Program-made: the position numbers and the translations under genes
The notes under the pieces: model-generated
Told to the model about the DNA's origin: nothing
The model's database searches: none
What the model saw: the letters and a program-made list of their open reading frames with translations, nothing else
Assembly: GCA_947034885.2 (NCBI GenBank)
Contig: OX344755.2
Span: 684,501 to 748,500 of the forward strand
Length of the DNA: 64,000 nucleotides
Direction: 5' to 3'
Source: Thuidium tamariscinum
Lineage: Eukaryota > Streptophyta > Bryopsida > Hypnales > Thuidiaceae
Shown here: positions 1,902 to 32,053 of the stretch, piece by piece
Numbering within the stretch: the stretch's first letter is position 1
Layout: each line of letters starts with the position of its first letter

Positions 1902-1909
1902 CATTTATT
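1902..1909. repeat. Left target-site duplication of the giant hAT (CATTTATT)
   Basis: CATTTATT directly precedes the CAGGGTTG terminus and is repeated exactly at 18788-18795, directly after the opposite terminus. An 8-bp duplication is the hallmark of hAT transposition. Confidence 0.95.
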
Positions 1910-1917
1910 CAGGGTTG
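1910..1917. repeat. Left terminal inverted repeat of the hAT
   Basis: CAGGGTTG is complementary to 18780-18787. Identity drops after 8 bp, but both subterminal regions continue with GACG/CGTC-rich sequence containing GTGACG. Confidence 0.9.
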
Positions 1918-1924
1918 TCTATCC

Positions 1925-2445
1925 TGACGTGACGTGGGCTTTTCCCGTCGGGATGTCATGACGCGTCAGGACGCGTCAGAGGCCGTCCCGAATGCTGACG
2001 GCGTCGTCGACAGCGCGGATGAAGTCCGTCGACAGCGCGCAGACGGCCTGTCGGCCGCCTCGACGACTGGCCGTCGCGTGGACGGACAGAGCGTCCGCGG
2101 CTTTAGGGTTTAGGCGCGACGGCCAGGCCGTCGCCTCGACAGTTTTCTGTTCAGCGGACGGTCACGGCGTCCAGAGTCCGTCCACGCAGCGGGGACGGCC
2201 AGAGCGTCCGCGGCTTGTGCACTTCGACGGGACGGCCAGGCCGTCGCCTCGACAGTTTTCCGTTCAGCGGACGGTCACGGCGTCCAGAGTCCGTCCACGC
2301 TGCGGGGACGGCCAGGCCGTCGTCTGGACAGCGGGACGTCCGCTGGACGGCCAGAGCGTCTGCGGGGACGGCCACGACGTCCCGTCCGCGGCTGTCCACA
2401 GTGCGCCAACGGACAGGCCGTCGACTGGACGACTGTTGCCAGGCC
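1925..2445. promoter_or_regulatory. GC-rich CCGTC/GACGG repeat block, left end and transposase promoter
   Basis: This is a dense cluster of GGCCGTC/GACGGCC and related pentamers in both orientations, in an otherwise AT-rich setting. It includes a direct repeat of 113 bp period (starting 2118 and 2231), each unit opening with GACGGCCAGGCCGTCG. The block sits between the left terminus and the TATA box at 2453. By analogy with subterminal motif clusters bound by Ac-type transposases, these may be transposase binding sites that also control the promoter. That role is inferred. Confidence 0.7.
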
Positions 2446-2452
2446 TTCACAG

Positions 2453-2458
2453 TATATA
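2453..2458 (+). promoter_or_regulatory. Probable TATA box of the hAT transposase gene
   Basis: TATATA lies directly downstream of the GC-rich block and about 215 bp upstream of the start codon. A start site near 2485 would be expected. Confidence 0.5.
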
Positions 2459-2588
2459 GCACAAGCCGTGTATTTGAAGGTCACTTTTCCTTGCTGATCT
2501 CTGCTCTTATGACCTGGTTGGCACACAGCCATTGCACTAGAGTGAAGTCCAAGAAGAGTGTGTGGGAGGAACACTTGCTGTGAAAGCA

Positions 2589-2646
2589 GTAAGTGTTATT
2601 TCCACATCACATCCAAACTGAATACTAACCTGTTTTGTTTGTGCAG
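2589..2646 (+). other. Possible short leader intron of the transposase gene
   Basis: A consensus donor GTAAGT at 2589 and a pyrimidine/T-rich acceptor ending GTGCAG at 2646 would remove 58 bp of leader, 26 bp before the ATG. The upstream ATG at 2509 meets a stop before the donor, so the leader looks non-coding. A similar arrangement is seen before the kinase gene. Confidence 0.4.
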
Positions 2647-2672
2647 TTTCAAGTGAAGAACCAGTGGGAGCA

Positions 2673-5600
2673 ATGGGAGGGGGGAGGACACAATGGGAAC
2701 CCTGGTACAGGCTACAAGAGGATGGGAAAGTGGAATGCAAGTTCTGCAAAACGAAGATTAGTTACCGCAAGGATCGCTTGCTTTTCCACTTGGGTTATAG
2801 ACGAAATGACACCCTCCCCGGAGTGAGAATGTGCAACAAGGCCAGTGCAGCAGTGAAGGCTATGTTTTTCAATTGTGGGGGGAATGTTCCTACGGTCTCC
2901 GAAGACGAAGAGGAACATGATGTGGAAGTGACATCACCGTCATCGAATCCAATGAGGGTGGTACGTGATCAAGAATTACCCAATGCTTCAATCTCAATTA
3001 GTGGAGGGGGAGGAAATACTTTGGGCCAAAATTCTCAAGTTCGATCATCAGAGGCGCCTGTCCCTTCTTCGACCCATAGTCGACCGCTGAGGCAATTATC
3101 CGTACAAGAAGGGATGGACACATCCAAAAAGCAAGTACTAGACAAGAAGTGGGCAAAGTTTTTCTACGAAGCAAATATCCCATTCAATGTGGTGAGACAC
3201 CCCGCTTTTGTGGATGCCGTGAAATCAACCTCCGAGTCCAGAGTTCTTTACAAACCTCCACCTTACAATGCCATACGTACGAAGCTCATGACATCAACAA
3301 AGGAGGAAGTGGCTGCACTGGTAGCGGAGAAGACAAGGGGGCCTATCCACAAGTACGGTGTCACTATATGTTCTGACGGATGGGACAATGTCAGCCATCG
3401 GCCATTGATCAATGTAATGTTGTCGTGCACGAGTGGAGAAGTATTTTTGGGATCGGTGGACACTACAGGCGAAAGCAAAGACGCTGTTTATGTGGCTAAT
3501 TGCATGATCGATTACATTGACGCGGTGGGGGGACAGAATGTGGTGCAAGTTTGTACGGACAATGCGCCAAACATGCGTTTGGCTGGTACTCAAATTACTC
3601 GCGAATTCCCTCACCTATATTTCCAAGGTTGTTCCGCGCATGCACTTGACCTTCTACTTGAAGATTGGGGCAAGCAACTTTGGGTGGTCAAAATGGTGAA
3701 GAAAGCAAAATCAATCGTGAAATTCATTCGCACGCATCACATGCCACTCGCCATTTTCCGACGACATTCTCCTAACCTCATGTTGAAGAATCCCATTGAG
3801 ACACGTTTTGCGACCATGTTCCTCATGATCGAGCGTTTGGCCGAGGTCAAGGAAGCCGTGGAATCTACAGTCCATGATCCGCAGTGGAACAAATATGTGA
3901 GGTCCTCGAACGCTGCAATACACAATAAGGCAGAAAAGGTTCGACGTAGGGTTCGAAAGGACGAGTTCTGGAGGAGGTGTCTCAACTTTGTGCATATGGT
4001 AGAGCCTGTGTTGGTGGCTCTTCGAGAGTTTGATGGAAAACATCCGGTCATGGGCAAAGCATGGATCGTGATGAAGAAGCTAGAAAAGCATGTTTTGGCT
4101 TTGAGGAATCGACCATTTTCATTGGAGGCAAATTATGCGGACCGTGCTGAATACGCGTTTTACGAACGATGGGATTTGATGAAGACTGATTTGTACTACG
4201 CAGCTGCCCTGCTCAATCCATTCCTCCTTGATGAAATTATACTAATAGACGATAACGAGGCAAAGGAGGCCATTCTTAGAGTACTACGCAAATTGGCAGT
4301 TGGAGGGTTGGGATATGCAGCCGCTTTGTTTGAGTACCAATCCTTTCGAGACCGCCGAGGCATGTTCGCTGGACTTCCCGATGTGAATACTTTGAATTTG
4401 GAGCCGCATGAATGGTGGGATCTTCTCGGAGCCGCTGCTCATACGCTTGCACCTATTGCAAGAAGGATCCTCGCACAAGTATGTTCCGCATCATCATGCG
4501 AACGCAATTGGAGCATGTATTCATTTGTCCACAGCAAGTCTCGCAACAGATTGACATCTGAGCGCGCGGAGGAATTGGTTTACATTTATACCAATTCAAG
4601 GACTCTCAGGGAAAGGGGTGCGGCGGATGCAGCACGATGGTACACTGAGAACATGTTGTCCGAAGATTCCATGACAACCGAATCAGATGGCTTGGATCGT
4701 GGTTCGGTTATGTCAGACGCTAACAACGATGACTCAGACGACAGTTCCAATGGCGATGATGATCCACCATTTCGGCCTTTGGGTGAAAGGCAAGAAAGGG
4801 GTCCCCTAATTGACGAGTCCGTATTTGACTTTGATGGCGCGAATAATGATGGAAATGACCACGGGGGAGATGAGGATGGAAATGACAACGGGGGAAATGA
4901 TGGCAGTCCGTCATGGATGCCACGTACATCGATTGCGGGGTCAAGTGGTGGAAATCAAAACGAAGGGGTTGAAGCCCCACCTTCGCCGGTTATAGGGCCG
5001 ATTGAAGAAGAAATGCGTACCTGGAGACATGAACATGTCGTTGTGGTAGAAAGACAAGGCGAAGATGAGGTCGTTGCCACAGATCCCCGAGTGGCGCGGA
5101 ACACTCGTAGCCACAGATCCCCCATTGGTGTCGAGATAGACTTTCGCACATTGCTTCGAGACACGATCGGCGTGCGACCACAAGCGCCTAGCTTGGATGA
5201 TCCACCCGTCCAAATTTCAGCACGGCCTTCATCTTCTAGAGTCCGCCCCAACCAAGAAACTCCATCAGTCGGTACACGATTGGCCGGTCTCTTCCCAACT
5301 CTAAATATGACCGAGCGAAGGAATGCACCTCCATCCTCAGAACAACCCGTTGCACCGCCTACACGCACTACTAATCGACGCCCGCGGCCATGTGAAGAAA
5401 GCCCTACCAATGAACGAGTGAGTAGAAGAACACGTAGAAGGCTAAGAAGGGAAGAAGCGGCGAGTATACCATTTCTCCGCGAAGGTCTTCTCCCTGGACC
5501 GACGGGGCCCAGTGTGGATACCGCTGGAGATGGAGTAGGAGGGCGAACAATCCGCAGATTGGCTTCTATAGTAGGTGAAGGCTCAGACAGCCCTGACAAC

Positions 5601-5807
5601 TCACCAAGCGAAGTCGGTAGGGCAACGTCCAATCATGATGATGAATCCATGGGTCCTAGTATAGGTGAAGATGGTGAAGTTCCGGGAGATAGTGATTATA
5701 GAGGGACTCGTAGAGGTCCTCCACCTGCACCTCAAGACAATCAAGCAACCACGCGAGAGGCTGCTGCAAGGAGCATGGCTCCTAATCGTACACGAGCAAG
5801 ACGTTGA
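2673..5807 (+). CDS. hAT-family transposase with long acidic/basic C-terminal extension
   Basis: This nuclear DNA transposase is expected to cut and paste the surrounding element. I chose the first ATG (2673), giving 1044 residues. Residues about 15-55 form a BED-type zinc finger (C22, C25, then a His and a Cys about 14 and 27 residues on). Residues about 195-365 match the DUF659/RNase-H-like core, with DGWDN (D235) and CTDNAP (D296). A C-terminal hAT dimerisation region follows, with SSCERNWS (E610) at about 575-645. The D-D-E triad is therefore present and no break is seen. The remaining ~390 residues are unusual: an acidic Asp/Asn/Gly tract (about 680-760), then Pro/Ser/Arg-rich sequence with a basic patch (RRTRRRLRR) that could be a nuclear signal. 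Most plant hAT transposases end soon after the dimerisation domain. GC content is higher than in the flanks. Confidence 0.93.
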   Translation: MGGGRTQWEPWYRLQEDGKVECKFCKTKISYRKDRLLFHLGYRRNDTLPGVRMCNKASAAVKAMFFNCGGNVPTVSEDEEEHDVEVTSPSSNPMRVVRDQELPNASISISGGGGNTLGQNSQVRSSEAPVPSSTHSRPLRQLSVQEGMDTSKKQVLDKKWAKFFYEANIPFNVVRHPAFVDAVKSTSESRVLYKPPPYNAIRTKLMTSTKEEVAALVAEKTRGPIHKYGVTICSDGWDNVSHRPLINVMLSCTSGEVFLGSVDTTGESKDAVYVANCMIDYIDAVGGQNVVQVCTDNAPNMRLAGTQITREFPHLYFQGCSAHALDLLLEDWGKQLWVVKMVKKAKSIVKFIRTHHMPLAIFRRHSPNLMLKNPIETRFATMFLMIERLAEVKEAVESTVHDPQWNKYVRSSNAAIHNKAEKVRRRVRKDEFWRRCLNFVHMVEPVLVALREFDGKHPVMGKAWIVMKKLEKHVLALRNRPFSLEANYADRAEYAFYERWDLMKTDLYYAAALLNPFLLDEIILIDDNEAKEAILRVLRKLAVGGLGYAAALFEYQSFRDRRGMFAGLPDVNTLNLEPHEWWDLLGAAAHTLAPIARRILAQVCSASSCERNWSMYSFVHSKSRNRLTSERAEELVYIYTNSRTLRERGAADAARWYTENMLSEDSMTTESDGLDRGSVMSDANNDDSDDSSNGDDDPPFRPLGERQERGPLIDESVFDFDGANNDGNDHGGDEDGNDNGGNDGSPSWMPRTSIAGSSGGNQNEGVEAPPSPVIGPIEEEMRTWRHEHVVVVERQGEDEVVATDPRVARNTRSHRSPIGVEIDFRTLLRDTIGVRPQAPSLDDPPVQISARPSSSRVRPNQETPSVGTRLAGLFPTLNMTERRNAPPSSEQPVAPPTRTTNRRPRPCEESPTNERVSRRTRRRLRREEAASIPFLREGLLPGPTGPSVDTAGDGVGGRTIRRLASIVGEGSDSPDNSPSEVGRATSNHDDESMGPSIGEDGEVPGDSDYRGTRRGPPPAPQDNQATTREAAARSMAPNRTRARR

Positions 5808-6188
5808 GAGCATCTAGGGAAAAAAATGTCTCCATGTCATCTTATGTAATATTGTGTAAGGCTGAATACCTTGCATGTGAAATTCGGCATTAATTATAAA
5901 TACTACACATGCTTCCTGTGCTCATGTAGGGCGCATGGGTAGAAATTTTTTATCTTCACATGTCACAAATTCTACAACGCAACAACGGATCCATTTATGG
6001 ATATTTGTCCCAAGAAATGGAAATATTTGCTTTGTCGTTTGCCATGTGTTCTATACTCTTAAATTTGGATTCATTCTTCGAAGCTGGTTACCTACATGCT
6101 TGGATATTTTGAGATCATTATGGATTTTGCCATGTACAAGAAAACAAATGTAATCTGGAATATGGAGAAAATGATTGAAAGTACTGAA
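5808..6188 (+). other. 3' flank of the hAT transposase gene
   Basis: AT-rich, with no gene seen. It should contain the transposase 3' untranslated region. Short open frames near 5935-6153 have no recognisable content. Confidence 0.5.
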
Positions 6189-7114
6189 TTAACCCCTAAA
6201 GGACCAAGAGTCCCCTCGGGGAACTTTAAGAATTAGGGCAAGTACTTGTGACTTCAATTTTTAATGAATTTTATTGAAATTTTCACATAAGATAAAAAAA
6301 CTGATTAGCTCCGTGGAAATATTCATTTTTTTTCAATTGGTGACCGGGAGCAAAAGTTATGCCATCATAAACATTATTTTTATGTTGCCGGGCAGAAAAA
6401 AAATCTACAGAAACTTCAAAATTAAAAAAATAATTTTTTTTTCTTATAGATTATATTTTTGTCTACAAGTAAAGCTTTGATTCATTCCATTTGGATTAGT
6501 AATGTGAAAGTTATGAACAATCTTGTTTTTCGGGCAATCTAAGCATCTTCTTGAAAAAATAACTTCTAGGATTCATTTGTGAATGCAATTTCCACAATTT
6601 AAAAAAAAAATTGTTGGACAAGGTTGATTTTGTTTTCTAGAACAATCTCACCATTGGGATTATTGTGTTTCAATTCCATCTATGAGATATTTGCAATTTA
6701 GTTTTTCTTTCAATCTTGGACCTACATCTACTTGACAATTTTTTAAAGAATGACAAAAAGTCTTTATTTTGTGAATTTTTTTTCCTAAGCTCTTAGCTCA
6801 ATTTCTCAATAAAATTTTTTTAATTCAACGTCTGTAGTGCAAAAAGATTACATAAATGGAGGACAAAGTCATTTGAAGTTGCAAACTAGTGTTTAAGAAA
6901 ACTTTGTTTTCCAACTTTGAATGCTCATATCTTCCTATCTATACGGTCAAACTTCATGAAATTTTCACCACATCATCTTAGTTAAGTAAAGTTCAAGATC
7001 CTATGGTTAGATTCTAAAAATTTAGTTTTTTTGTTTTTCATGGATGAATGGAACAAAAATGGCAGTTTTGAGTGGTTTTGGGTTGAAAAACGGCCGTGGT
7101 CCTTTAGGGGTTAA
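6189..7114. mobile_element. TTAA-flanked non-autonomous piggyBac-type element inside the hAT (level 5)
   Basis: TTAA at 6189-6192 and 7111-7114 flank a 918-bp insert with 14-bp perfect terminal inverted repeats, CCCCTAAAGGACCA. The inside is AT-rich and non-coding. Internal sequence around 6340-6520 (reference points 'caaaagttatgccat' and 'attccatttggatta') resembles the foldback arm near 24,450-24,640, so both belong to one group. It lies between the transposase stop and the 3' end of the kinase gene, and disrupts neither. Confidence 0.85.
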
Positions 7115-7326
7115 CATGGCATTCAGTCCAAAATTTACGAAGGGACAGAACTACTCACAAATCCACTCACCGGAATCATACTCGAATGGAACAAAAATAT
7201 TTACATATATTTATTTCAAAAAGGAGTTAGTACAAAATTTAGTGACGCAAAGTTCGTGGACTATACTGTGGTAAAAGCAAGTACTAAGGTACGTCTACGA
7301 TTACATTGCCACTAAAATACTATTCT

Positions 7327-8988
7327 CTAATCTTCATTCCTTGCTTGTTCTTGTAGAAGTGCTTGCTCCTTGCGGGCCTCGCGGTAGCAATCAACGGGTG
7401 GAGTCCAAAATAAGGGGGCGCCACTAATTCGTCCCACGGCGTATGTTACCGTGCGTCGTTGTAGTGGGTCCTCTTTGCACAATTCGCCCAATGTGGCTTG
7501 AAATGTACCAAACGCTGTATGGTCGGGAAGCATTTCCGTATTTTCGCGGTCTTTCTTCCATATCTTCTCCGCAAGCTTCCCAACAGCATATCCGTCTATA
7601 TGTATACTAACACACGGTGCCCCATCTGCACGAGTGGGGGATACCGAAGTACCCGCCTCTCCAGGAACATACATCAATTCAGGGGCCACCCACCAACGTT
7701 TCTGACGTGTAGCCCGCATTTGGCTTGCACATTGAAACTGGTACAAAGAATGGGTTTCTTCATTGATACGACTAGCCATTCCCCAATCACATAGCCCAAT
7801 CCACACTGTTCGCCCATCATCATTCGGAAAATGCAACATGATGTTTTCTGGCGTGATGTCGTTGTGGAGCACCGAAGATTGTTGCACCGCATCCACGATG
7901 CAAATTAACGCCCATGCAAGCTCGGTGCGGTTTCTACGATAAGCCAAGAGTCTTTTGGCTTCTTGCATCGTCTGTGGAGTTGCATGGTAGGCAAGCTCCC
8001 CGATCTCAGCATAATCTCGGTTTTTCTGGTCCAATGCGAACATGGCTCCCAATGTTCCTCCATTCCACCATTGAGAATAACACTCCATGGTCATGTCATT
8101 TATAGCAAAAAATTTTATGACCCCTGGATGATTACATGGACAAACCAAAGCCTCGATGGACAACTTCTCCCGCGACTTCTTCAATTGATCCACATATAGG
8201 GCTGTCTTGCCCGCCAATTCCATCATGGGGGGAATGTGCCTTGAATTTTGGAGGCTCACTTTACGCACCCTCCCGTGCCCCCCTTGTTTGTTGTGGCCTG
8301 ACAATGGAACCACCACCACTCCTCGTTCAAGAAATACCACTCCTCCCGCACCCGCTTGGCCTAGGGACAAGCTTTGGCTCTGCTGAAACCATGGGGCAGA
8401 GCGGATATTGCTGGAAGACAGCGCTCGCATTGCGTCATGCCACCAATACACCTTTTTGTGCAACAAATGCAATGCTTGTTGCTTCGGCGCTACATCTCGT
8501 TTGAAGCCCTTTACCGATGCGGCGACTTGGGCGATGTTGAAAACACAAGTTTGCACTTGTTCGTCAAGCCAACGACGGAAGTGTTCCTTTGTGCGATCTT
8601 CAAGCCACTCATCCTCGCCCATTGTTGTCCAAAACATGTGGGTGAATTTTTTTTTAATTGTCTCCACCCCTTGCAATCCACGCGAGACGTAGGTCGTATT
8701 CAATTGAGCAATCGTATATTGCTCCAAAAAATCCAATGCCACTTCCTGCACTTTCCTGGTCGCAGCCTTCCTTGGCCAGTCGTCTGTATTCGTAGTCTTG
8801 TGCCTCCGCCTACTCTTTTTTTTCTTGGCCCCTGAAGATTCTCCTCCAGCCGCACCACCGACCCCTTCTCCGGCCAATACTGCCTCTGATACGTAGTCAA
8901 TGGATTCTGGAGACTGCTCACCAACAGGATCTCCGATGCCTGAAAACCACTCATCAACCTTGCGCTTCGACGCACCTCGCCCGTTCAT
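7327..8988 (-). CDS. Protein-kinase-like cargo protein of the hAT
   Basis: A 553-residue open frame starting at an ATG (complement of 8986-8988). The C-terminal half carries the order of kinase motifs: a glycine-rich loop GGHGRV (about 235-240), a catalytic loop HNDITPEN (375-382, HND in place of HRD, with D377 and N382 kept), DWG (401-403, in place of DFG), APE (435-437) and a later DGYAVGK helix motif. I could not place the beta-3 lysine with certainty, so activity is probable rather than proven. Residues about 75-190 are helical-looking and unrecognised. KKKKSRRRHK (55-64) may be a nuclear signal. It converges on the transposase gene and shares the CCGTC-block promoter layout. Phosphorylation of the transposase, the RING protein or host factors is only inferred. 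Confidence 0.85.
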   Translation of the reverse strand: MNGRGASKRKVDEWFSGIGDPVGEQSPESIDYVSEAVLAGEGVGGAAGGESSGAKKKKSRRRHKTTNTDDWPRKAATRKVQEVALDFLEQYTIAQLNTTYVSRGLQGVETIKKKFTHMFWTTMGEDEWLEDRTKEHFRRWLDEQVQTCVFNIAQVAASVKGFKRDVAPKQQALHLLHKKVYWWHDAMRALSSSNIRSAPWFQQSQSLSLGQAGAGGVVFLERGVVVVPLSGHNKQGGHGRVRKVSLQNSRHIPPMMELAGKTALYVDQLKKSREKLSIEALVCPCNHPGVIKFFAINDMTMECYSQWWNGGTLGAMFALDQKNRDYAEIGELAYHATPQTMQEAKRLLAYRRNRTELAWALICIVDAVQQSSVLHNDITPENIMLHFPNDDGRTVWIGLCDWGMASRINEETHSLYQFQCASQMRATRQKRWWVAPELMYVPGEAGTSVSPTRADGAPCVSIHIDGYAVGKLAEKIWKKDRENTEMLPDHTAFGTFQATLGELCKEDPLQRRTVTYAVGRISGAPLFWTPPVDCYREARKEQALLQEQARNED

Positions 8989-8989
8989 T

Positions 8990-9041
8990 CTGAAAAAAAA
9001 TATGCGATGGTAAAACCAAGGAATTAGGGTTCAGTACTCAC
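8990..9041 (-). other. Possible short leader intron of the kinase gene
   Basis: On the minus strand, donor GTGAGT (9041-9036) and acceptor TTTTTTTTCAG (ending 8990) lie directly before the ATG. At 52 bp this is very short, but the polypyrimidine tract and CAG are textbook. It parallels the transposase leader. Confidence 0.4.
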
Positions 9042-9183
9042 AAATGTGAAAACTATCCCCCCTTCTTCAGCCGAGCCTCCTCGCAAGCACCCGCGCTCCC
9101 AAGCAAGGACTGCAACCAATCCAGGGCAAGAGAGCACCGTCAGAGCAGGAGAGACTCGTGCAGAGTGGGGGACCTGGCCCACC

Positions 9184-9190
9184 TTATATA
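9184..9190 (-). promoter_or_regulatory. Probable TATA box of the kinase gene
   Basis: TATATAA on the minus strand, about 195 bp upstream of the start codon and directly downstream (in gene direction) of the GC-rich block at 9192-9650. Confidence 0.5.
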
Positions 9191-9191
9191 G

Positions 9192-9650
9192 TCGTTGGCG
9201 AGCCGTCGCATGGACGGCCGATCCGTCCAAGGAACTCGAAAGCCGTCGAGGGGTGTCGGGAACTCCGAGACCGTCGAGGGGACGCACTGAAGCCGTCGAG
9301 GGGAATGTCGAGGACGATGAGGCCGTCGACGAGACGCACCCATCCGTCCCGGGAATTTCGAAGCCGTCGTGGGGACCGTCGAGGAACTGCGAGACCGTCG
9401 AGGGGACGCGCTCGCCGTCCTCAGAATTGGGAAGCCGTCGAGGGGAATGTCGAGGACGATGAGGCCGTCGACGGGACGCACCCATCCGTCCCGGGAATTT
9501 CGAAGCCGTCCAGGAAACCGTCGAGGAACTGCGAGACCGTCGACAGGACGCACAAGCTGTCCTGGGAATTCGGGGGTCCGTCGTGGAACGAGGCCGTCCA
9601 CGCGACCCCACAGGGCGTCCCGGGAATTCTGAACCATTAAGGGGATCGTC
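9192..9650. promoter_or_regulatory. GC-rich CCGTCGA repeat block at the kinase promoter
   Basis: About 450 bp of repeated GCCGTCGAGGGG, GACCGTCGAG and TCCCGGGAATTTCG units, with a direct repeat of 142 bp period (AGCCGTCGAGGGGAATGTCG at 9291 and 9433). The core CCGTC/GACGG is shared with the other three blocks, but the longer units differ. The open frames across it in several phases are compositional artefacts. I infer a role in promoter control or transposase binding. Confidence 0.65.
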
Positions 9651-11085
9651 GGGGAAGCACAGGGCGGTGAAGATGCCAGCGAAGACTTAATGGCAAGCCT
9701 CGTGCAACTGAAATTCCTCTACAAGGTAATAAGGTAACAGGCCAGAAAACGCCCATCTAAGGGCTGACACTGAATTTTGAGAAGGTCAAAAACCCAGCCT
9801 AAAGCCCTTGCCCAACCGAAGGTTTTAGGATTTAGGGTTTAGGGTTTAGGGTTTAAGTTCCTTTTTACTTTTGCGTAAATGAGGGTAAAATGTCTAGTTT
9901 AGTAATTTAATAACTTAAGAAGTGCATTATAATTTGTATTCGGTAATTGATCTTTATTTTCCTAGCGTCAATCTAATTTTGCAAATTTTGAAGTAATTAA
10001 AAGAAATAACATGAAATGATTAAACTTATTGGTTCTAGTCTAAACACATACCTCTTCGGTTGATGCGTATCCGTTCTCAGTTGTGTCGTCAAAAAGCTCT
10101 ACTTCCTCCCTTTCCATCTAATTTCATTCTCCCCCGTAAATTTAGGAAATAGGAGCTAATTTTAATAATTTAATCCGGCTTAATTAGCATTTGCTATTTG
10201 ATGGTCACACTATAACTCCTTGAGGAACTTAAATCATTTCCGTACAATGACTTTGCCTAAATCTAATTCAAGCGTACATACATCTATTTTACAAAATGGG
10301 GTCACATAAAATGCCTAATTGAATTCTTCAACCCAATTATATTGTTGTAACTTACTAGGAATCTAGGATGTTTTTTGGTATGAAAGATGTGCATATGGAT
10401 GTTTCCTACATATCTCCTCTTTGCAAATTAATGCTAATTCATCACCAATGTTTTATAATCAATTATCATGCTAAACCATGAGTTTTGAATGAAACAATTC
10501 ACCAAATACTGAATTTGACTTATGTGAAATCCACATTTGGTATGCTTGATTATATTATGCAAAATTCGTTTCAATGGCAGAATTGGATGATCCTAAACTT
10601 GTTGGTGGGTAGTGTGTAATGTACACGGCTAAAATTTTACATTGCCTTCCAGTGCTTCATCTCATATCGAGAATGGCTGAAGTGATGGACCCTAAATTTT
10701 AGAAGTTGCCCTACGGATATGTAGGGATTTAAACTTCTCAATTTTAAATTCGGGAGCCATCCGACTAGGCATGTATTTTTTAGGAAATTAGATTAGTACT
10801 ACATGTACATATTAGTATGTTACTATATTGCATAATATTCTGGTCATGTAGTCATGTACTCTACTTATGAGTTATGAAACTATGAGTTATGAAAGTATAA
10901 GTGAATGGCGAGCACTAATTAGGAGTTTAGGACGGGGGCACTGGCAAGCAAGACTCCGTTAGTGGGCACCAACCAATTTTCAGAATTCAGACTCTTCTGC
11001 GGAACCCTAAACCGCTCTAATCCTCTCTTTGCCGAAGTGTATGATAAACCCTAGAAGAAAGAGTTAGAATTCCGCAAGTGTGTTA
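9651..11085. other. AT-rich spacer inside the hAT with a short telomere-type run
   Basis: No gene is seen. Positions 9826-9856 hold about three to four TTTAGGG units, the plant telomere repeat, probably an interstitial relic. The rest is unique-looking AT-rich DNA. Confidence 0.5.
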
Positions 11086-11500
11086 ATGGTTTGAACCAAA
11101 AATACACGTCAAAGGGTTAAAAAAGTTACCCCAAAAAAATATAGAAAGGGTTTGGAAAGAAATTGTCGAGCCCTGTTCGAATAAAAAAAATGTGGAAATG
11201 GGTTGGAAAAAAATGTGTTAATGGTTCAATTAAAAAAAATAGGGAAAAGGTTTGAATCCCCAAAATGGAAGTGGTGTGAATAAAGCAAAACGTTAATGGT
11301 TTCGGGTGTTGGGCAAAAATATATAGAAGGGATTTGGACCAAAAAATGGATTAATGGATCGACTAAAAAAATATGGAAATGATTCGGTTTGGAAAAAAAT
11401 GTGGAAATGGTTTGAATAAAAAAAATGGGAATGGTTTGAATAAAAAAAATGGGAAAGGTTTGAATAAAAAAAATGGGAATGGTTTGAATAACAGACTTGG
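11086..11500. repeat. Degenerate array of GGAAATGGTTTGAATAAAAAA units
   Basis: Imperfect repeats of about 20-30 bp combine 'ggaaatggtttg', a run of A, and 'tgtggaaatgg' or 'gttaatggttcg'. It is the complement of the array at 16,890-18,140, so the two arrays lie inverted within the hAT. It carries no real coding sequence. Confidence 0.7.
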
Positions 11501-12113
11501 GGGTTCACCCCCTTTATCTTTTGGTAACCACGTGCGATAATGGGGTATTTAATGGGGGGGTATTTATGTCCTTCTCATGTTTTTTTCCCTCCCTATTAGT
11601 AGAAATAAAGCTACCGGAGTGTATTTTAGAGTACCCTATTTTCTTTTGTAAATTCTTTGAAGGACTATTTTTGAACACCCTATTTTTTTTCTACATTTCA
11701 TAATTACAAAATATTGAGAAGATCAAAAACATTGTATACAAGGAAACATGTGAGCTTCAAGGATTTTGATGAACTAAGAACATGGTGAAACGCACAGCAT
11801 ATGCTATCTATATGCCACTAAAGAGTTTGAAAATCAAAAATCAAAGCTACAACTATTTATATTTCACCATTTATAAGAAAACAAAGCACACAATAGAGAA
11901 ATTAAACTATAGTATACAATCCTAATTAATGCAATATTTAAAACCAATTTAAAGGCACAAGAGCATATTCACATTCATTTATATAATAAGGAAAACTTAG
12001 GGAATTTAATAAGCCGATTGTGTTTAAAAACACAAGTATCAGTAAGTCTGCAAATCCATTCTAACATCTAAAATGAAGAAGTTCAAGGACCTCTTGCTCT
12101 CAAATCAACTATT
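11501..12113. other. AT-rich spacer, nothing recognised
   Basis: No domain-bearing frame, RNA gene or clear repeat is seen. Confidence 0.4.
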
Positions 12114-12760
12114 ATGGTAGGAAGCTCACATGGAGGTTAATAAACTATGCAGGCTTTTTTATCTGCTTAATAGGACTATAGGAGGGTCTGAAATCTGAAT
12201 TGGAAAGCTCATTGTGAGGAAACTAATTGTGGATTATATTGAAGCATGCTAAGATTTGATTTTTACTATATGAATGGATGGTTTTAGAGTTACAATGGAT
12301 TCAATCGTAACTAAGTGTACTTATAGGTGTCTACTAATTTTATTCAAAATAAAAAATGGTTGTTAAACTACCTTCTTTCAAATGTGAAATTGTTTTGAAA
12401 TAATGATTAATTGAAGAATTCATTTCAGTTTTTGAAAGGGACACATTTAGAAACCATTTCAAACCATTTTTTACATGTTGCATTACTAGTTTATTCACCA
12501 AACCAGATTCTTTTAGAAACTGTGCATGTATAGATTTTCAAGGCTTACTGATCACAAATAGGGTCCTATGACAAATTGTGTTTGAAAATTAATAATTAAT
12601 TCAATTTTTCTTCCAAAAAATATGAAACAACTTGTATTAGATTCCTCATCTATTTCTCCTTGACTGAAAAATAAACTAAAAATATTTTCATCTAAAGACA
12701 TACACGAAAAAGGCAAATCAACTCTTAATTTAAATAAGTGCAATCTTTGCCTCCTACCAT
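12114..12760. mobile_element. ~0.65 kb inverted-repeat element, family F copy 1
   Basis: The ends are ATGGTAGGAAGCTCAC and, on the complement, ATGGTAGGAGGCAAAG. The body matches the complement of 28689-29297 closely and two more diverged copies at about 55.9-56.8 and 57.8-58.4 kb. Landmarks are the segment around 'atttctccttgactgaaaa' and the phrase 'gggtcctatg'. It is non-coding. I could not fix a target duplication, so the superfamily is open. Confidence 0.6.
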
Positions 12761-13099
12761 GCATACATGGCTAACACACTTGTCACAATCATGAATCCCA
12801 AAAAAATTTAAAAAGAAATACAAGATCTGAATGAGTCACACACTTGTCACAACCATGAATGAATCCCAAAATTTTTTAAAAAGAAATGCAAGCTGTGAAT
12901 GTTAACTCACTGAGCTCCAATAAAAATTACAGTATACAGGTACTGCATTGGCAATCTTCACCAGTTCACCCACATTAAAATTCTGCTGTCTTACAGCTTA
13001 TTGCATCTCAACTGCCTAAATGAATACCAATTACGTAATTGGATCCTGGCTGTCTAATTGGATTCCACCTGCCTAATTGAAATTCAGTATATATTGGGC
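12761..13099. repeat. Spacer with a 64-bp direct duplication
   Basis: The stretch starting 'cacacttgtcacaatcatga' near 12777 recurs near 12841 with small changes. Further on, CTGCCTAAATG and CTGCCTAATTG motifs repeat. No gene is seen. Confidence 0.45.
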
Positions 13100-13905
13100 C
13101 CACCTATTGGGCCCGTCTAGGACCTGGGCAGGCCGTCACGGGGACGGAGAGCGTCCAGAAAACCGTCCAGGAAGACGGGCCCGTCCAGGACCTGGGCAGG
13201 CCGTCACGGGGACGGAGGGCGTCCCTAAAACCGTCCAGGAAGACGGGCCTGTCCAGGACGGCCAGGGAGGACTGACCCCTCTATTGCCCCTTTTTTACCC
13301 TTGCAGAAAACCCTGGAATTTCTTTTATTTTTCACACAAATTCTTTTTTGCAAATTCTGAATTCTTATTTGGAATCAGAGACCTCGATTTAGCTAGGGGA
13401 CGTGTTGAAATCTAAAATTTAATCGGCACAAATTAGGGGGGAGTTTTTTACATTTACCCTCCGGAGGGGCAATAAGGGGTCAGTCCTCCCTGGCCGTCGA
13501 GGCCCTGAGCAGGCCGTCACGGGGACGGAGGGCGTCCAGAAAACCGTCCAGCAACACGGGCCCGTCCAGGACCTGGGCAGGCCGTCCGCAACGAATTTGG
13601 CTGCGGGCCGGAGCGTCGACCTGTCCGGGCAGGCTGTCCACAGCGGAACAGTGGCCGTCCAAGACCACGGGCAGGCCATCATGAAGAGCCATTTTTGGCC
13701 ATCGAATTTGCAATTCGGCGGAGTAATTATGGATTTTCGAACTCATGAGTGTTTTCGAACTCGTTGACAGCGCCGGACCTGTGGACGGCCTCTGTGACGT
13801 CATCCCGAAGCTGTCGACGGCCTCCCGAACCTCCGTCGACGCTCCCTGGACGCCCCAGCCGTCGATGGCCGTCCGCATCAACGGCTCCAGGTGGTGCATG
13901 GCGAT
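13100..13905. promoter_or_regulatory. GC-rich CCGTCCAG repeat blocks upstream of the RING gene
   Basis: Two GC-rich parts (13,105-13,275 and 13,480-13,900) flank a short AT-rich middle. The first has a direct repeat of 78 bp period (GACCTGGGCAGGCCGTCACG at 13121 and 13199), and a third copy of the unit lies near 13,500-13,580. The inner edges (about 13,262-13,290 and 13,467-13,492) form an inverted repeat around GGGAGGACTGACCCCT. This is followed by a TATA box at 13954. Function as transposase-bound or promoter DNA is inferred from position. Confidence 0.62.
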
Positions 13906-13953
13906 GTGATTAGACACAAATTAACACTCCTAACGAGGCTTGGTAATGGGGAG

Positions 13954-13960
13954 TATAAAT
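13954..13960 (+). promoter_or_regulatory. Probable TATA box of the RING gene
   Basis: TATAAAT lies just downstream of the GC-rich block and about 200 bp before the chosen ATG. This matches the spacing for the transposase and kinase genes. Confidence 0.5.
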
Positions 13961-14161
13961 CCCAAATTCAGCCACAATTAACCTTGCTTTCTCTCTTGAG
14001 TTGCTCTGTCCTAGCTTGAAAAAAGCTTTGCATTGCAATTCGGGAGGAAGTCAAGCATTTGGCTATTGCTTTGCCACATTCCAGTTGCCCTCACGCAACA
14101 GGAGGCAGAGCATAGTCATCTGTACATACACATCCGTGTTGTGGCATTGTGTGCAGGTACT

Positions 14162-16525
14162 ATGGCCTTAAACCCACTAGAGATGGTAATACATGTGGAG
14201 AACCCCCCTATGGCAGAGAACCAGGAGGTGGTAATTGCTGGAAATCACCCCCCAGTGGTAGAAAACCAGGAGATGGTAACCCATGAAGGTGAACCCCCAC
14301 ACAGGAAGCGTCGTGGGAACAGGAGCACTGTAGACTGGGCGACTTTCAACACTGGAGAAGTTTTGGCCGGGCACGGGTGGGAACAGGCGCTTGAGCCATG
14401 GACCCGCACCACATGTCAGAGATACGTGGACTGGGCCCACATCAACCGCCATTTTCCACGGGAGAGAAATGAGACGCAAGTGCGATCTGGCGTTGCATTG
14501 ATCAAGTATTGCGTACACCCAACGTTCAAGAAGCGGTTGACCGAGGTGGCATTGGCACTTTGGGGGACCCTCTCGAAGAAGGATGGGACCCTCGCATTGT
14601 GTCAAATGGCATATGCGGAGGTTTTTTTGGGCAAGGACGTGGATTGGAACACGTATCCGGCTAAACAACGGGGCGGCCGTTTCCCTACTAAAAGCCGTAG
14701 AATTCCACCAAATCCTGAAGTGCAATTGGAAGGCGAAGGAGTGGCTGGGGCACAAGGGGACGAAGTGGCGGCCGCGGACCCCATGGAGGTCGACAATGCA
14801 CCTCAAGGCGCCAACGAACAAAATCCGGTGGCTCCCGAATTGGAGGCGCCCATTGCCGGTCCAAGCGAGCCCATGCCACTCGCCATTCACCCAATTCCCC
14901 CGTCCATGACAATTAATGAAGTATTTGGAGCAAATGGGGAATTAGAGGCATTACGTGCATTGGTGATTAAGCTGCGTGAGGATGGTGCAGAAGCTGAGCG
15001 AAGGCACGAGATGGAGGTACAAGCCCACAACGCACGAGTGAAGGCTTTGGAGGAAACGAATGCTAAGTTACTAGCAAGTAACATTGACTTGCTTGAACGT
15101 GAACGTCGCCAAAGCACGGATGGCACTCCACCATTGGATGAGGTCGTGGAGCGGGCCACATATGGTCTAATTGAGCCAGCTGACCCATTGACGGTGCGCC
15201 GGGTGCGGCCTCATGGTATATTCCCAACACCACATTTTCGTGGTGAGAGTTCAAATGCGGCAACCCAATCAACAGATGCATTGGGCCAAGAGTTCATAAG
15301 CATTGAGCGCGTGGCATACGATGCCCTTGTGGCACGAGCGGAGCGTGTAGAGGGCGAGTGCAATGAGGCCAAGGCCAACATGGAGACTGTATCAGCAGCT
15401 TTGGAGGGACTACAGGACGAGTTGGCATTTGTAAATGCCATGAAGGATAGATTGTTGCAACAAACGTCAACTACGAGGGAGCAAAAGTTGCTTGCCATGA
15501 GCAACATGAGATTGGCATGCACTTTGGCTATGAACGAGGTCGCACAACTGCAGCGTGAAGTCAGGAGAATAGCTGCACAATTTAGAGATGGTAGCCAACG
15601 TTATTTTGGCTTGACATCGTGGGCCCGACTGGAGGATATGTTTCCAGTTACATTGCCCCAAAATCGCGATAATGCAAGCATTGATTGGGACGGGCATCCG
15701 CATCTAGACTTCCAATTCAACACCGCGAGATATCGATACGGGCCCGTGGATAGAGAAGGCAATGCCCCCTTACTGTGGCCCATAGTTCCCGAGTTTGTGA
15801 AGGATGGAACGACGTGCACGATTTGCATGGAACCGTTTGGACCCGAGGGTGGATTTTGCCTTGGAACGTGTGGACATATGTACCACCCCGGATGTCTCAT
15901 TCCGCACATGGTCACAAGAAAGCGGTGCGCACAATGCAAGGCTCCTTTGCACCGGCGGTTGTACGTCCAATTTGGGTTGGAGGATTACATGCCCCCACAC
16001 TTCGAGTTGAACGAAGAGAACTTGCCTGGCGATGAGAATAGAGGGAGTTGGGGTAATGACATGATATGGATGTGGAAGTGGGGCCATGACAGTAGACACC
16101 TCGCCGTGCGCAGCGTGCAAGACATTCCGTGGAACGATGATGCGGAGATTACGGAGGTGTGCAAGAAGCTGATTAGTGCGGGCGATCCAGGGCGGCGAGT
16201 ATTTTTTGGCCAACTTGCTGGTGGCCATTGGGACTTGGACCGACAGGAGTTCGTGCGCCAACCACATCCAGAGAATGTGGTTTTTGACTCCAGTGGAAAT
16301 CCTATCGGAATACTCCAAGACATGGATCATGAGGCACAAATGAGGTTCATCGAAGACACTACGTTCAATGAGGTGCAAATGTTGTCAACCATTTCTTCCT
16401 ACTTGCACGATCGATATGATCGGACCGTAGTGGCTACGTTGAACAGTTTGCAATCTAGAGAAGGATTGCAAGATTTTTTGAGAAATAGTATAGGCAGAGG
16501 CATTGTAGAACCAGAACAAGGTTGA
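14162..16525 (+). CDS. Coiled-coil RING-H2 protein (probable E3 ubiquitin ligase), hAT cargo
   Basis: From the first ATG the product is 787 residues. The frame is open further upstream without an ATG, and an acceptor-like GTGCAG at 14151-14156 suggests a leader intron. Residues about 50-175 form an unrecognised basic domain with several Trp residues. Coiled-coil-like heptads run at about 252-320 and 377-480. A RING-H2 finger follows: C552, C555, C570, H572, H575, C578, C589 and C592, with normal spacing (C-x2-C-x14-C-x-H-x2-H-x2-C-x10-C-x2-C). About 195 unrecognised residues follow. RING fingers of this type usually recruit E2 enzymes for ubiquitin transfer. The target is unknown; transposase, host silencing factors or the kinase are candidates by inference. 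The gene is intact and GC-richer than its surroundings. Confidence 0.88.
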   Translation: MALNPLEMVIHVENPPMAENQEVVIAGNHPPVVENQEMVTHEGEPPHRKRRGNRSTVDWATFNTGEVLAGHGWEQALEPWTRTTCQRYVDWAHINRHFPRERNETQVRSGVALIKYCVHPTFKKRLTEVALALWGTLSKKDGTLALCQMAYAEVFLGKDVDWNTYPAKQRGGRFPTKSRRIPPNPEVQLEGEGVAGAQGDEVAAADPMEVDNAPQGANEQNPVAPELEAPIAGPSEPMPLAIHPIPPSMTINEVFGANGELEALRALVIKLREDGAEAERRHEMEVQAHNARVKALEETNAKLLASNIDLLERERRQSTDGTPPLDEVVERATYGLIEPADPLTVRRVRPHGIFPTPHFRGESSNAATQSTDALGQEFISIERVAYDALVARAERVEGECNEAKANMETVSAALEGLQDELAFVNAMKDRLLQQTSTTREQKLLAMSNMRLACTLAMNEVAQLQREVRRIAAQFRDGSQRYFGLTSWARLEDMFPVTLPQNRDNASIDWDGHPHLDFQFNTARYRYGPVDREGNAPLLWPIVPEFVKDGTTCTICMEPFGPEGGFCLGTCGHMYHPGCLIPHMVTRKRCAQCKAPLHRRLYVQFGLEDYMPPHFELNEENLPGDENRGSWGNDMIWMWKWGHDSRHLAVRSVQDIPWNDDAEITEVCKKLISAGDPGRRVFFGQLAGGHWDLDRQEFVRQPHPENVVFDSSGNPIGILQDMDHEAQMRFIEDTTFNEVQMLSTISSYLHDRYDRTVVATLNSLQSREGLQDFLRNSIGRGIVEPEQG

Positions 16526-16889
16526 ATACCTTCTGGTGATGAGTTAGGCCATTAGACGGATGTATAGTATATTAGTATTGTAAATAGTATTTGGCTATGA
16601 CGACCATTTACGAGCGTTTGTTGCTCATGTTGCAAAAGTACATTTTTTGGGCAATGAAGCATTTTCATTTTTCTCGTACAACTGTATTGTTTGTTAAACA
16701 CTTAAACTGAAAACTTAACCATGAACAAATGAAAAGAATACTCAATACGTTTGCTTGAAATGTATGTGCAACAAGTTCATTTAAATCCAATGCCATACTT
16801 TCACTTAAAGTAGATTTTGTAAGTTCACTTTTAAAAATTGCCAAAATTCTATTTTTTACATATGCCACAAGTATATATGCTTTTGTTTT
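16526..16889 (+). other. 3' flank of the RING gene
   Basis: AT-rich, with no gene seen. It presumably contains the 3' untranslated region. Confidence 0.45.
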
Positions 16890-18140
16890 TGATTCCCACC
16901 ATTTCGAATTTTTTTAATCAAACCATTAACCCAAGTTTTTCCCACCGCATTTTTCCACATTTTTTTTTCCACATGTCAAACCATAACCATTTTTTTACCC
17001 TAACCCATTTCCATTTGTTAGATTCAAACCCTTTCCATATTTTAGATTGAACCCATTTCCATATTTTTATTAGTCGAACCATGAACACATTTTTTTAAAC
17101 CATTTCTATATTTTTTTGTCGTCCACATTTCAAACCATCAACGTTCTTTTTTATTCAAAGCATTCCCATTTTATTGATTCAAACTATTTCCAATTTGAGC
17201 CTTAACCATTAAGGCATTAACATTTTTTTTCCAAACCATTTCTAAATGTTTTCTATTCAACATTTCAAACCATGAAAGTTTTTTTTTTCAAACCATTTCC
17301 ATATTATTTTTAATCAAACCCTGAACACATTTTCTTTCCAACTTATTTCCATATTTTTTTTAGTCAAACCATTAACACATTTTTTTTCACGACCCTTTCT
17401 ATAAGTTTTTTTCCAACCTTTCAAACCATTGCCTTTTTTTTTATTCAACCCATTTCCATATTTTTTTTTATTCGAAGCATTTTCATATATTTTTTAGTCG
17501 AAACATGAACACATTTTTTTTCCAAATCATTTCTATATTTTTTTGTATTCAACATTTCAAATTATTAACTTTTTTTTAATTCAAAGCATTTCCTTTTTCT
17601 TTTTCTTTGATTCAAACCATTTCCATATTTTTTTAGTCGAACCATTAACCCATCTTTTTTCCAAACCATTTCTATATTTTTCTTTCTAACACCCTATACC
17701 ATTACCGTTTTTCTTTACTCAAAACTTGGCCATTTTTTTACCCTAAACCATTTCCATATTTATTCTAGTCAAACAATTAACACATTTTTTTTCCAAACCA
17801 TTTCTAAATTTGTTTTTCCAACATTTCAACCCATTTCCATATTTCTTTTAGTCAAACCCTAATCACATTTTTTTCCCAACCCATTTCCAAATTTTTTTGG
17901 TCGAGCCATTAACACATTTTTTTCCAAACCCTTTCTATATTTTTTTTTCATTCAACATTTCAAACCATTAACGTTTTTTTTATTCAAACCATTTCCATAA
18001 TTTTTTTATTCGAACAATTAACACATTTTTTTTCAAAACCAGTTTTACATTTTTTTTTATTCACAATTCCAAACCATTAATGTTATTTTCATTCAAACCA
18101 TTTCCTTTTTTTTGATTCAAACCACCAATACCTTTTTTTT
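16890..18140. repeat. Long degenerate array of CAAACCATTTCCATATTTTTT units
   Basis: About 1.25 kb made of shuffled phrases: 'aaaccatttccatatttttt', 'agtcgaaccattaacacat', 'tttttccaaaccatttct'. The spacing is about 25-65 bp and irregular. It is inverted relative to the array at 11,086-11,500. The homopolymer T runs argue against coding. It could be slippage-expanded or a degraded satellite that travels with the hAT. Confidence 0.75.
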
Positions 18141-18296
18141 AAATACAGAATATATATTATATTTAGACTATGGAAGGCCTAAAATACAAAACCATGGGAA
18201 ATTATTTTTTGAGAGATGGTTAAACCTCATAGACTAATGAGAAAATTTTGATTGCGAATATGAACTCAGACTTTTAAGTCTTACAAATAAAGAGTT

Positions 18297-18779
18297 CCAG
18301 TCCACGGAGCCCAGGCCGTCCATCCTGACCGTCGACGGCACGGCCAGGCCGTCCATCAAACCCAGGCCGTCCAACCTTCCTCTCAATCCAAGCCGTCCTT
18401 CCCAAGCGTAGACCGTACCCAGACCGTCGATCTGGAGGCGTCCGTCCAGGCCGTCCACTGGACGTCCTGTCCATCGGGGCTGTCCATACCCCGCGAGCGG
18501 GGCCGTCCCCTAAAACCGTCCACCGGATCCGGACCGTCCGCAAAACCCAGAGTGTCCATCCAAGCCGTCCAGTCAGCCAGGACCGTCCATCGGAACTGTC
18601 CACCGAGCACGTCCTTCCAGGCCGTCCACGGAGGTCGTCCGTGAGGGCGTCCACGACCGCTGTCACGATTTTTCATCCTCTGTCGCGGATTCTGTTGTGA
18701 ATTTCATCCTGACGGACGCTCGGCTCCCCGTCACGTCAGCGGACGGACATCCTGACGGACGGACATGACGCGACGGAAG
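18297..18779. promoter_or_regulatory. GC-rich CCGTCC repeat block at the right end of the hAT
   Basis: Repeated AGGCCGTCCA, GACCGTCCA and related units run almost to the right terminus. The last ~70 bp contain GACGGAC, GTCACGTCAGCG and ATGACGCGACGG motifs that mirror the left subterminal TGACGTGACG and ATGTCATGACGCG. No gene starts next to this block, which favours a transposase-binding role for at least this copy. Confidence 0.68.
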
Positions 18780-18787
18780 CAACCCTG
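18780..18787. repeat. Right terminal inverted repeat of the hAT
   Basis: CAACCCTG, the exact complement of 1910-1917. Confidence 0.9.
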
Positions 18788-18795
18788 CATTTATT
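18788..18795. repeat. Right target-site duplication of the giant hAT (CATTTATT)
   Basis: An exact copy of 1902-1909 placed directly after the right terminus. Confidence 0.95.
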
Positions 18796-20269: not shown

Positions 20270-20408
20270 GTACACTACTACACCCTATTTTTTTGTCTTC
20301 TTCATATTCTTCTTGTCTACTTACTGGGCTCGGTTTAGGGTGTGGTTGTATTAGAGCGTACTTGAAATTAGCTTACAGCAGAAAAGAAAACGTGTGCAGG
20401 CCGAAAAT

Positions 20409-21392
20409 ATGACAAGAGGCATCTCAAAGACGATGACAACGGACGTGCAATTGTTGCCGCCTACAATCCCCCGAAGCGCAGCTCCCAATCAAGAACTGCT
20501 GGGGGCGATGCTAGTGCCGCAGGTGATGCCCCTGCTCCACACTATAAAAGCACCAACGTCGGAGCGTAGCGACTGCGACCCCCGCGGACGAGGTTCCCCT
20601 CCTGCAACACTGGAAGAGCCAATGCTACGTCACGAGGCCCCTCTCACAGGGTTTAGGGACACTTCATCATTTCCGATGCCAATGCGAGTGCCTCTATCCT
20701 GCTTGCGCAATGGAAACACTAACAATGACATAGAAGAAGATGAGGAAAGCGGCTTCACTTTAGGACTTGCAACATACTCCTACCACCACCAGGTGTCGAA
20801 GGAAGAGATGTATTTTGTTATTTTGGAAAATAAAAGTACGGTTGCTTTGAAAAAAACCGACGTGCATGAAATACTACGTGACGAAGAATTGAGTTCAGAT
20901 AACGATAGTGAAGATACAGACCGTAATGGTTGCCGTGACTCATCTTGCGAAAATGAAGACGAAAGTGGGGACTCCAACATAGACGAAGAAGACCAAAGCT
21001 GCTCCAGCGATGAGTCCTGCGACCTCGACAAATCGGGAGAAGACAACGACGATGAGAAAGAGAATTATCCAACACGCTTCGCCTCCACTGACTGCAATGT
21101 AAACCTTCCTTCACCAATGACCTTGCACAAGGGCTCCACCGTTGGTGTGGCGGCTACGCAATCACACGTACAACCACGTACAAGAGTTGCAACAAGGGAC
21201 CTTCGTCGACAAGAGCACCTTCAAAACGATGAGCCTGTAGCAGCGGAGGTGAGGGCGAGTTCGCGTGGGGGGAAAGCCACCAACGTCCGAGGAAGGAAGG
21301 CCGTTACCATCGGGCGGGAAGGGCCAGCGGCAAAGAGCGGTAGTCTAGCCGCAATGACGGGGCCAGGAGGGCGTGGCAGCGGGCGAGGCTGA
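20409..21392 (+). CDS. Acidic N-terminal part of the piggyBac transposase gene (partial exon)
   Basis: An open frame follows the acceptor at 20,399. From the ATG at 20409 it gives 327 residues. The centre is strongly acidic (runs of Glu, Asp and Ser at residues of about 155-225), as is common in the poorly conserved N-terminal region of piggyBac-type transposases. It ends in Gly/Arg-rich sequence just before the catalytic region begins in another frame at 21,482. I see no domain in it. The link to the transposase rests on position, composition and orientation. A splice or frameshift must lie between 21,393 and 21,482. Confidence 0.45.
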   Translation: MTRGISKTMTTDVQLLPPTIPRSAAPNQELLGAMLVPQVMPLLHTIKAPTSERSDCDPRGRGSPPATLEEPMLRHEAPLTGFRDTSSFPMPMRVPLSCLRNGNTNNDIEEDEESGFTLGLATYSYHHQVSKEEMYFVILENKSTVALKKTDVHEILRDEELSSDNDSEDTDRNGCRDSSCENEDESGDSNIDEEDQSCSSDESCDLDKSGEDNDDEKENYPTRFASTDCNVNLPSPMTLHKGSTVGVAATQSHVQPRTRVATRDLRRQEHLQNDEPVAAEVRASSRGGKATNVRGRKAVTIGREGPAAKSGSLAAMTGPGGRGSGRG

Positions 21393-21481
21393 GGTCGTAG
21401 TAGCTGCAGCGGCAGGGGCAACAGACGCAATTTCATTGGCCCTTAAGGGACACTTGAAATAAGAGAACAGTACGCTCCAGA

Positions 21482-32012: not shown

Positions 32013-32053
32013 ATGGATGATGCAGCAGCAGGTGGAGGCGAAGAGAAACGACG

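Follow-up and report, generated by a model that had tools for sequence, protein, structure and literature searches.

A complete 16.9 kb hAT-type transposon of Thuidium tamariscinum with intact transposase, kinase-like and RING-H2-like genes

Positions 1910-18787 of a 64,000-nucleotide stretch of the Thuidium tamariscinum genome (the window; contig C7, 684501-748500) are a complete 16.9 kilobase (kb) hAT-type transposon with intact transposase, kinase-like and RING-H2-like genes. The element belongs to a young, multicopy family with about a hundred or more near-identical copies. We think it somewhat better than an even bet that it is an autonomous multi-gene hAT, in which the kinase-like and RING-H2-like proteins are standing accessory parts beside the transposase. 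An earlier note on this DNA, made from the letters of the window, had proposed such an element; its coordinates, 8-base-pair (bp) duplication and complementary ends proved exact when we re-read the window. The features of the element are as follows.

1902..1909, no strand: left copy of the target-site duplication CATTTATT, found as a single copy in a paralogous empty site
1910..1917, plus strand: left terminal inverted repeat CAGGGTTG; this left end recurs genome-wide
1970..2450, no strand: left subterminal GC-rich CCGTC/GTCC array, also upstream of the transposase gene (motif density)
2453..2459, plus strand: TATA-like box TATATAG, 220 bp before the transposase ATG (read from the sequence)
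2673..5807, plus strand: hAT transposase, 1044 amino acids, with DUF659 and hAT C-terminal dimerisation region (long open frame, Pfam)
7327..8988, minus strand: protein-kinase-like gene, 553 amino acids, with HND, DWG and APE motifs (open frame, Pfam)
9184..9190, minus strand: TATA-like box TATATAA, about 200 bp before the kinase ATG (read from the sequence)
9190..9650, no strand: CCGTC array upstream of the kinase gene (motif density)
13105..13875, no strand: CCGTC/GTCC array upstream of the RING-like gene (motif density)
13954..13960, plus strand: TATA-like box TATAAAT, about 208 bp before the RING-like ATG (read from the sequence)
14162..16525, plus strand: RING-H2-like protein, 787 amino acids from its ATG (open frame, Cys/His pattern, Pfam score below cut-off)
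18300..18787, no strand: right subterminal CCGTC/GTCC array reaching the right end (recurs with the right-end matches)
18780..18787, minus strand: right terminal inverted repeat CAGGGTTG; this right end recurs genome-wide
18788..18795, no strand: right copy of the target-site duplication CATTTATT, matching the left copy and the empty site

The terminal inverted repeats are perfect for 8 bp and imperfect beyond, as short as those of hAT elements, for which an excerpt of one paper gives 5-27 bp (PMC12506042). Taken individually, the terminal and duplication 8-mers occur in the window at chance frequency (3 against 1.88 expected, and 7 against 8.61, respectively), and for this reason the boundaries were tested by their recurrence in the genome (G000; 363 Mb in 19 contigs), the one genome that the copy searches covered. 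The lists returned by these searches hold the best-scoring candidates, so that all copy counts are lower bounds. Among the best 40 of 367 candidates for the left-end DNA (201 bp), which are 93-100% identical, 39 begin at base 1 and one at base 2; among the best 40 of 312 for the right-end DNA (488 bp), 38 reach base 488 and two stop at base 487. The listed ends form at least 13 left-right pairs spanning 15.8-17.1 kb. A kinase gene lies at the element's spacing behind all 40 listed left ends, a DUF659 place lies behind at least 32 of them, and a kinase lies 8-45 kb upstream of 39 of the 40 listed right ends.

We fetched ten additional copies from loci represented in the lists by just one of the three genes (RING at 5, transposase at 1 and kinase at 4, chosen at random within each class). 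Eight of them possess both ends, 16.7-17.2 kb apart, and are flanked by 8-bp duplications that are all different, seven perfect and one mismatched. In the other two the left end was absent from the fetched stretch. For one of these, on contig C2, truncation was considered and rejected, since a kinase (C2:25891337) and a left end (C2:25897228) were found further off; its kinase and RING segments are 24.0 kb apart versus the usual ~8.1 kb, which fits an insertion of ~16 kb. In the other, on C1, the kinase lies ~45 kb from the RING gene, and an interruption is possible. An eleventh copy, partly fetched, has the left end, its right end lies beyond the stretch, and 11.4 kb of it align to the window at 99.2% identity.

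When the window flanks were joined via one CATTTATT, the resulting sequence matched C2:17992839-17993118 over 280 of 280 bases at 98% identity, the remaining two matches being the window's own flanks. The central 80 bases of the C2 match contain one CATTTATT, lack the insert and differ at 2 positions; this is a paralogous empty site. It shows that the element inserted in the past, and activity in transposition itself is predicted. Recurring ends with further 8-bp duplications and an empty site were among the checks proposed in the earlier note, and the eight fetched copies and the C2 site supply both. By every feature tested the element qualifies as a hAT, as had been claimed: the target duplication is 8 bp long, the inverted repeats are short, and the transposase carries DUF659 together with a hAT dimerisation region. 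The flanks of the insertion site belong to a duplicated or repeated stretch, with a 98% paralogue on another contig (C2).

The transposase matches the Pfam profiles DUF659 (125.2 bits versus a cut-off of 34.7; 2.3e-36) and Dimer_Tnp_hAT (38.3 bits versus 21.4; 1.1e-9). In the kinase-like protein, Pkinase scores 35.6 bits against a cut-off of 31.7 over residues 326-439, and a string search finds GGHG at 236, AGK at 259, SIEAL at 277, HND at 375, DWG at 401 and APE at 435, among which we take the glycine loop, the lysine, HxD, DxG and APE to be represented. The protein thus has the usual catalytic motifs in order, and catalysis is predicted. The RING-like protein presents the zinc-ligand pattern C-x2-C, C-x-H-x2-H-x2-C, C-x2-C, starting at residue 553 of the translation from 14159. 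Its scores narrowly miss the curated Pfam cut-offs (zf-RING_2, 26.9 versus 27.3; zf-RING_11, 25.5 versus 27), which is why we call it RING-H2-like; it is a putative ubiquitin ligase. The zinc ligands are retained in both RING sequences that we read from an older subfamily. Searches of PDB sequences with the element proteins gave weak matches to IRE1, Hermes and RNF24; Hermes was matched by the transposase, and RNF24 is the nearest solved relative of the RING-like protein by sequence (E = 1e-4). In PHROGs, the kinase-like protein has a weak match to a serine-threonine kinase and the RING-like protein has none. A search of viral contigs for relatives of the kinase gave 6 pattern matches, none of which was confirmed, and the Pfam matches of the element's genes do not include DUF3435, the tyrosine recombinase that forms the first gene of Starship giant transposons.

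Full-length copies 98-100% identical to the window's genes were listed for the transposase (best 44 of 774 candidates, 34 of the 44 free of stops), the kinase (best 78 of 634, 51 stop-free) and the RING gene (best 57 of 1332, 47 stop-free). Places and stop marks were transferred manually from these lists into the cross-tabulation scripts. With implied left ends within 2.5 kb joined, the three lists define at least 88 loci on 11 contigs. The spacing between transposase and kinase is within 2 bp of that in the window at all 39 loci listing both, and the spacing between transposase and RING gene is within 321 bp at all 35 loci listing both. All three genes are listed at 31 loci or more, and at 14 of these 31 no gene has a stop.

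Shorter segments gave the same arrangement in larger lists (kinase, best 150 of 557; DUF659, best 150 of 547; RING, best 150 of 721). With the 116-amino-acid kinase segment, 142 of the best 150 of 557 matches are whole or within one residue of it and 94-100% identical, 2 are partial (91% and 97%) and 6 are diverged (64-68%); the listed RING places are 87-100% identical. A RING gene lies 3-25 kb downstream in the orientation of the element at 131 of the 150 listed kinase places, at 7.0-8.9 kb in 115 of them and at 10-24 kb in 16. Random placement, with the largest listed coordinate of each contig as its length, yielded 0.86 such kinase places on average and never more than 4 in 100 trials. The 19 listed kinase places lacking a RING gene include all 6 diverged kinases. 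Seen from the other side, 132 of the 150 listed RING places have a kinase upstream. DUF659 lies within 9 kb of at least 105 of the 150 listed kinase places, convergent in 100 and in tandem in 5, and at least one of the other 45 (C4:5807127) has its transposase in the full-length list. These figures, together with the kinase behind 40 of 40 left ends, agree with the earlier proposal that the kinase and RING genes travel with the element. The genome search returned neither of the pictures that the earlier note had named as refuting cargo status, the two genes at unrelated loci or ends never recurring as a pair.

The kinase also occurs in a second, older and decayed family. Among the best 150 of 551 candidates, at least 8 diverged kinase places are 87-100% identical to a query copy over 152 amino acids, and the query copy is 59-64% identical to the kinases of the window's family over the same length. 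Stops interrupt the 152-amino-acid segment in all 7 non-query copies; in the query copy, 3 stops lie outside it. In 5 of the 8 places a DUF659 gene on the same strand follows 1.7-1.8 kb downstream of the 116-amino-acid kinase segment, and these five are the top five Pfam-profile matches among the best 150 of 547; the remaining 3 have no DUF659 nearby among the matches listed. Kinase and transposase are in tandem at these five places and convergent in the window's family. Contig C11 (17.5 Mb of the 363 Mb) carries 6 of the 8 listed second-family kinases; as a speculation, C11 is perhaps a region or sex chromosome in which old transposons are kept. One C11 copy, the first part of which lies in another frame, is 57% identical to the window's kinase over 467 aligned positions. 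For this pair the non-synonymous and synonymous divergences (dN and dS) are 0.34 and 2.5, a ratio of ~0.13 (464 aligned codons, with 3 stop codons skipped).

The kinase occurs in two DUF659 families that differ in gene order and shows constraint between them, so it is probably a component of the transposon and not cargo. Judged from the one pair compared, both the constraint on the kinase and its link with DUF659 hATs appear to predate the present burst, and it is probably not a chance passenger. The earlier description of both genes as true cargo stands in that the element carries them, but it is probably not apt for the kinase, which behaves as a transposon component (second family, dN/dS ~0.13). 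For the RING gene, the data suggest a component of the window's family on which selection could not be shown.

The three genes and the two ends are further connected by a repeated motif. Four arrays totalling 2,197 bp contain 87 of the 101 CCGTC/GACGG sites of the element, a ratio that is somewhat circular because the limits of the arrays were set by motif density; the 47,122 bp of the window outside the element have 15 sites. All 20 occurrences of the longer motif AGGCCGTC in the window fall within the four arrays, and its absence elsewhere is free of this circularity. All three genes show the same layout, in which an array is followed by a TATA-like box, placed 200-220 bp upstream of the ATG, and then by a leader; judged by eye, there may be a 5'-untranslated intron between the TATATAG box and the transposase ATG. 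The sharing of arrays by three predicted promoters and both ends suggests one regulatory system. A short run of the plant-type telomere repeat (TTTAGGG) lies inside the element at 9820-9855, beyond the kinase promoter array. Minisatellites with units of ~24-26 bp, in opposite orientation, flank the RING gene at 11133-11494 and 16878-18140; their strand asymmetry is extreme (GC skew of -0.66 at 17-18 kb), and their transcripts could pair.

The Ac transposase binds subterminal hexamers near both ends of its element (excerpt of PMC3260210), and by this analogy we read the arrays as transposase-binding sites. They would double as subterminal recognition sites and operators, and the transposase, or a partner, would coordinate synapsis of the ends with the output of all three genes. 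The substrate of the kinase would be either the transposase itself or a factor of host chromatin or repair. The RING protein would direct the turnover of the transposase or of a host silencing factor, so that phosphorylation and turnover marking would together set the timing of the element's jumps. For both proteins the targets are inferred; in our preferred view they control the transposase, or a host factor that acts on the transposase. More broadly, and only as a tentative suggestion to which we give rather less than even chances, there may be a class of hATs in which a kinase is the long-standing partner of the transposase in at least two families, a RING ligase joined later, and one motif wires all genes to the ends, forming the transposon's own circuit of phosphorylation and ubiquitination.

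Several observations weigh against standing accessory functions. The mean divergence from the majority base in the three genes is 0.4-0.6% (17, 13 and 14 rows), and C>T plus G>A account for 131 of 162 changes in the transposase, 69 of 80 in the kinase and 102 of 130 in the RING gene. This pattern is consistent with a recent burst after which silenced copies underwent methylation-type decay, and the changes within the family indeed look like such decay. The within-family dN/dS is 0.64, 0.62 and 0.80 for changes in single rows and 1.25, 0.72 and 0.42 for shared changes (transposase, kinase and RING gene, respectively), revealing no selection on any gene, even the transposase. The dS of the kinase pair is near saturation, and decay of the second-family copy inflates its dN in part. 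For the RING core, dN/dS is 0.54 against one of the older-subfamily sequences and 0.82 against the other, neither value being significant, and a RING list (best 150 of 721) that ends at 87% identity shows no RING gene close to second-family members. Moreover, 18 of the 150 listed RING places have no kinase upstream among the matches listed, and 45 of the 150 listed DUF659 places have no kinase of this kind within 9 kb among the matches listed. Ten of these 45 are of the window family's type and 35 form a third group, so hAT movement does not generally need the kinase. Whether the kinase and RING genes always accompany this transposase had been posed as a question; at least 96 of the 150 listed kinase places have both RING and DUF659. 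The third DUF659 group (profile span up to 150 or 151; e.g. C2:8290198) has open frames of up to 1240 amino acids and no such kinase within 9 kb among the matches listed.

These points bear on the possibility that two host genes were captured by chance not long before the recent burst and were then spread passively between the ends. In so young a family (0.4-0.6% divergence) intact passengers are expected, stops are already present in 27 of the 78 listed kinase copies, and the dN/dS of the RING gene is indistinguishable from neutral. However, chance capture does not predict the array-TATA-leader layout of all three genes and its match to the ends, nor a kinase common to a second DUF659 family with another gene order (57% identity and dN/dS ~0.13, from one copy). 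We consider passive cargo unlikely for the pair, though it may hold for the RING gene alone. It is also conceivable, if rather improbable in our judgement, that the accessory proteins are anti-silencing factors acting on host chromatin or small-RNA proteins and not on the transposase. Kinases and RING ligases are common means of disabling host regulators, and the many copies with their heavy C>T and G>A load suggest strong methylation pressure from the host; this explanation overlaps with the accessory-part reading, from which it differs in the substrate only, and its target is likewise inferred. Finally, the three genes could be unrelated, a transposase on its own and one kinase and one RING gene of the host that came to lie between matching 8-mers by accident, as the chance frequency of the single 8-mers in the window would allow. 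We give this practically no credence, chance assembly and a chance 8-mer match being ruled out by the recurring ends, genes and spacing and by the empty site. Our preference thus stays with an autonomous multi-gene hAT.

Eukaryotic DNA transposons mostly carry one or two genes and leave their regulation largely to the host. Among plants, En/Spm (TnpA, TnpD) and MuDR (mudrA, mudrB) are two-gene transposons that pair a transposase with an accessory protein. To our knowledge, the accessory proteins of En/Spm, MuDR and PIF/Harbinger are neither kinases nor RING proteins, and these elements belong to superfamilies other than hAT. PIF/Harbinger (ORF1 and TPase) resembles the present element in combining a transposase with an element-encoded accessory protein (excerpt of PMC2836001). 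The maize hAT Ac/Ds shares with it the 8-bp target duplication, short inverted repeats and subterminal motifs near both ends (excerpt of PMC3260210), but Ac is 4.6 kb long with a single transcript and transposase, versus 16.9 kb and three genes here, and the present end arrays are ~0.5 kb long, of CCGTC type and repeated at internal promoters. MarorhAT-10 of the fungus Marasmius oreades likewise has DUF659 and the hAT dimerisation region, but measures 3,396 bp, and the excerpt on it mentions only a transposase gene (PMC9674265). ToxhAT/ToxTA of wheat-infecting fungi is a 14-kb cargo-bearing DNA transposon once filed as a hAT; it differs in its TA duplication and 74-bp inverted repeats, and its authors now place it in Tc1/mariner (excerpt of PMC12506042). 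Pack-MULEs and other gene-capturing transposons also hold host-like coding sequence between transposon ends, but most Pack-MULEs are 1-2 kb (excerpt of PMC6431247), whereas the genes of the window's element are full length, present in many copies and equipped with predicted promoters matching the ends.

In the full-text literature, judged from titles and the starts of abstracts and with most subscription papers and Repbase outside its scope, we found no description of a hAT with kinase and RING genes, in agreement with the earlier note, which knew of none with this gene set; within the same scope, phrases such as transposon-encoded kinase returned no paper. With such a three-gene element present in roughly a hundred or more young copies, it would become directly testable whether transposons time their own activity by protein modification. 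That kinase and transposase are paired in two families with differing gene order suggests that the partnership is a lasting one, maintained by selection. Annotators would also need to bear in mind that, in genomes of this kind, certain kinase and RING "gene families" may belong to transposons.

Other features of the window lie to the right of the element; Rfam gave 0 matches on the window. Just beyond the right end there is a piggyBac-type transposase reading frame at 22106-23071 (within 20394-23071; DDE_Tnp_1_7, 2.4e-40), in which the profile is matched only from its position 147, with a stop directly before it and an acidic open reading frame upstream. A long inverted repeat around 24680 (24440-24920) was seen by eye. 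A SABATH-type methyltransferase gene is present in three tandem copies (32021-35462, 45867-48156 and 61380-63679), the third called by the Pfam profile Methyltransf_7 and the other two by visible similarity.

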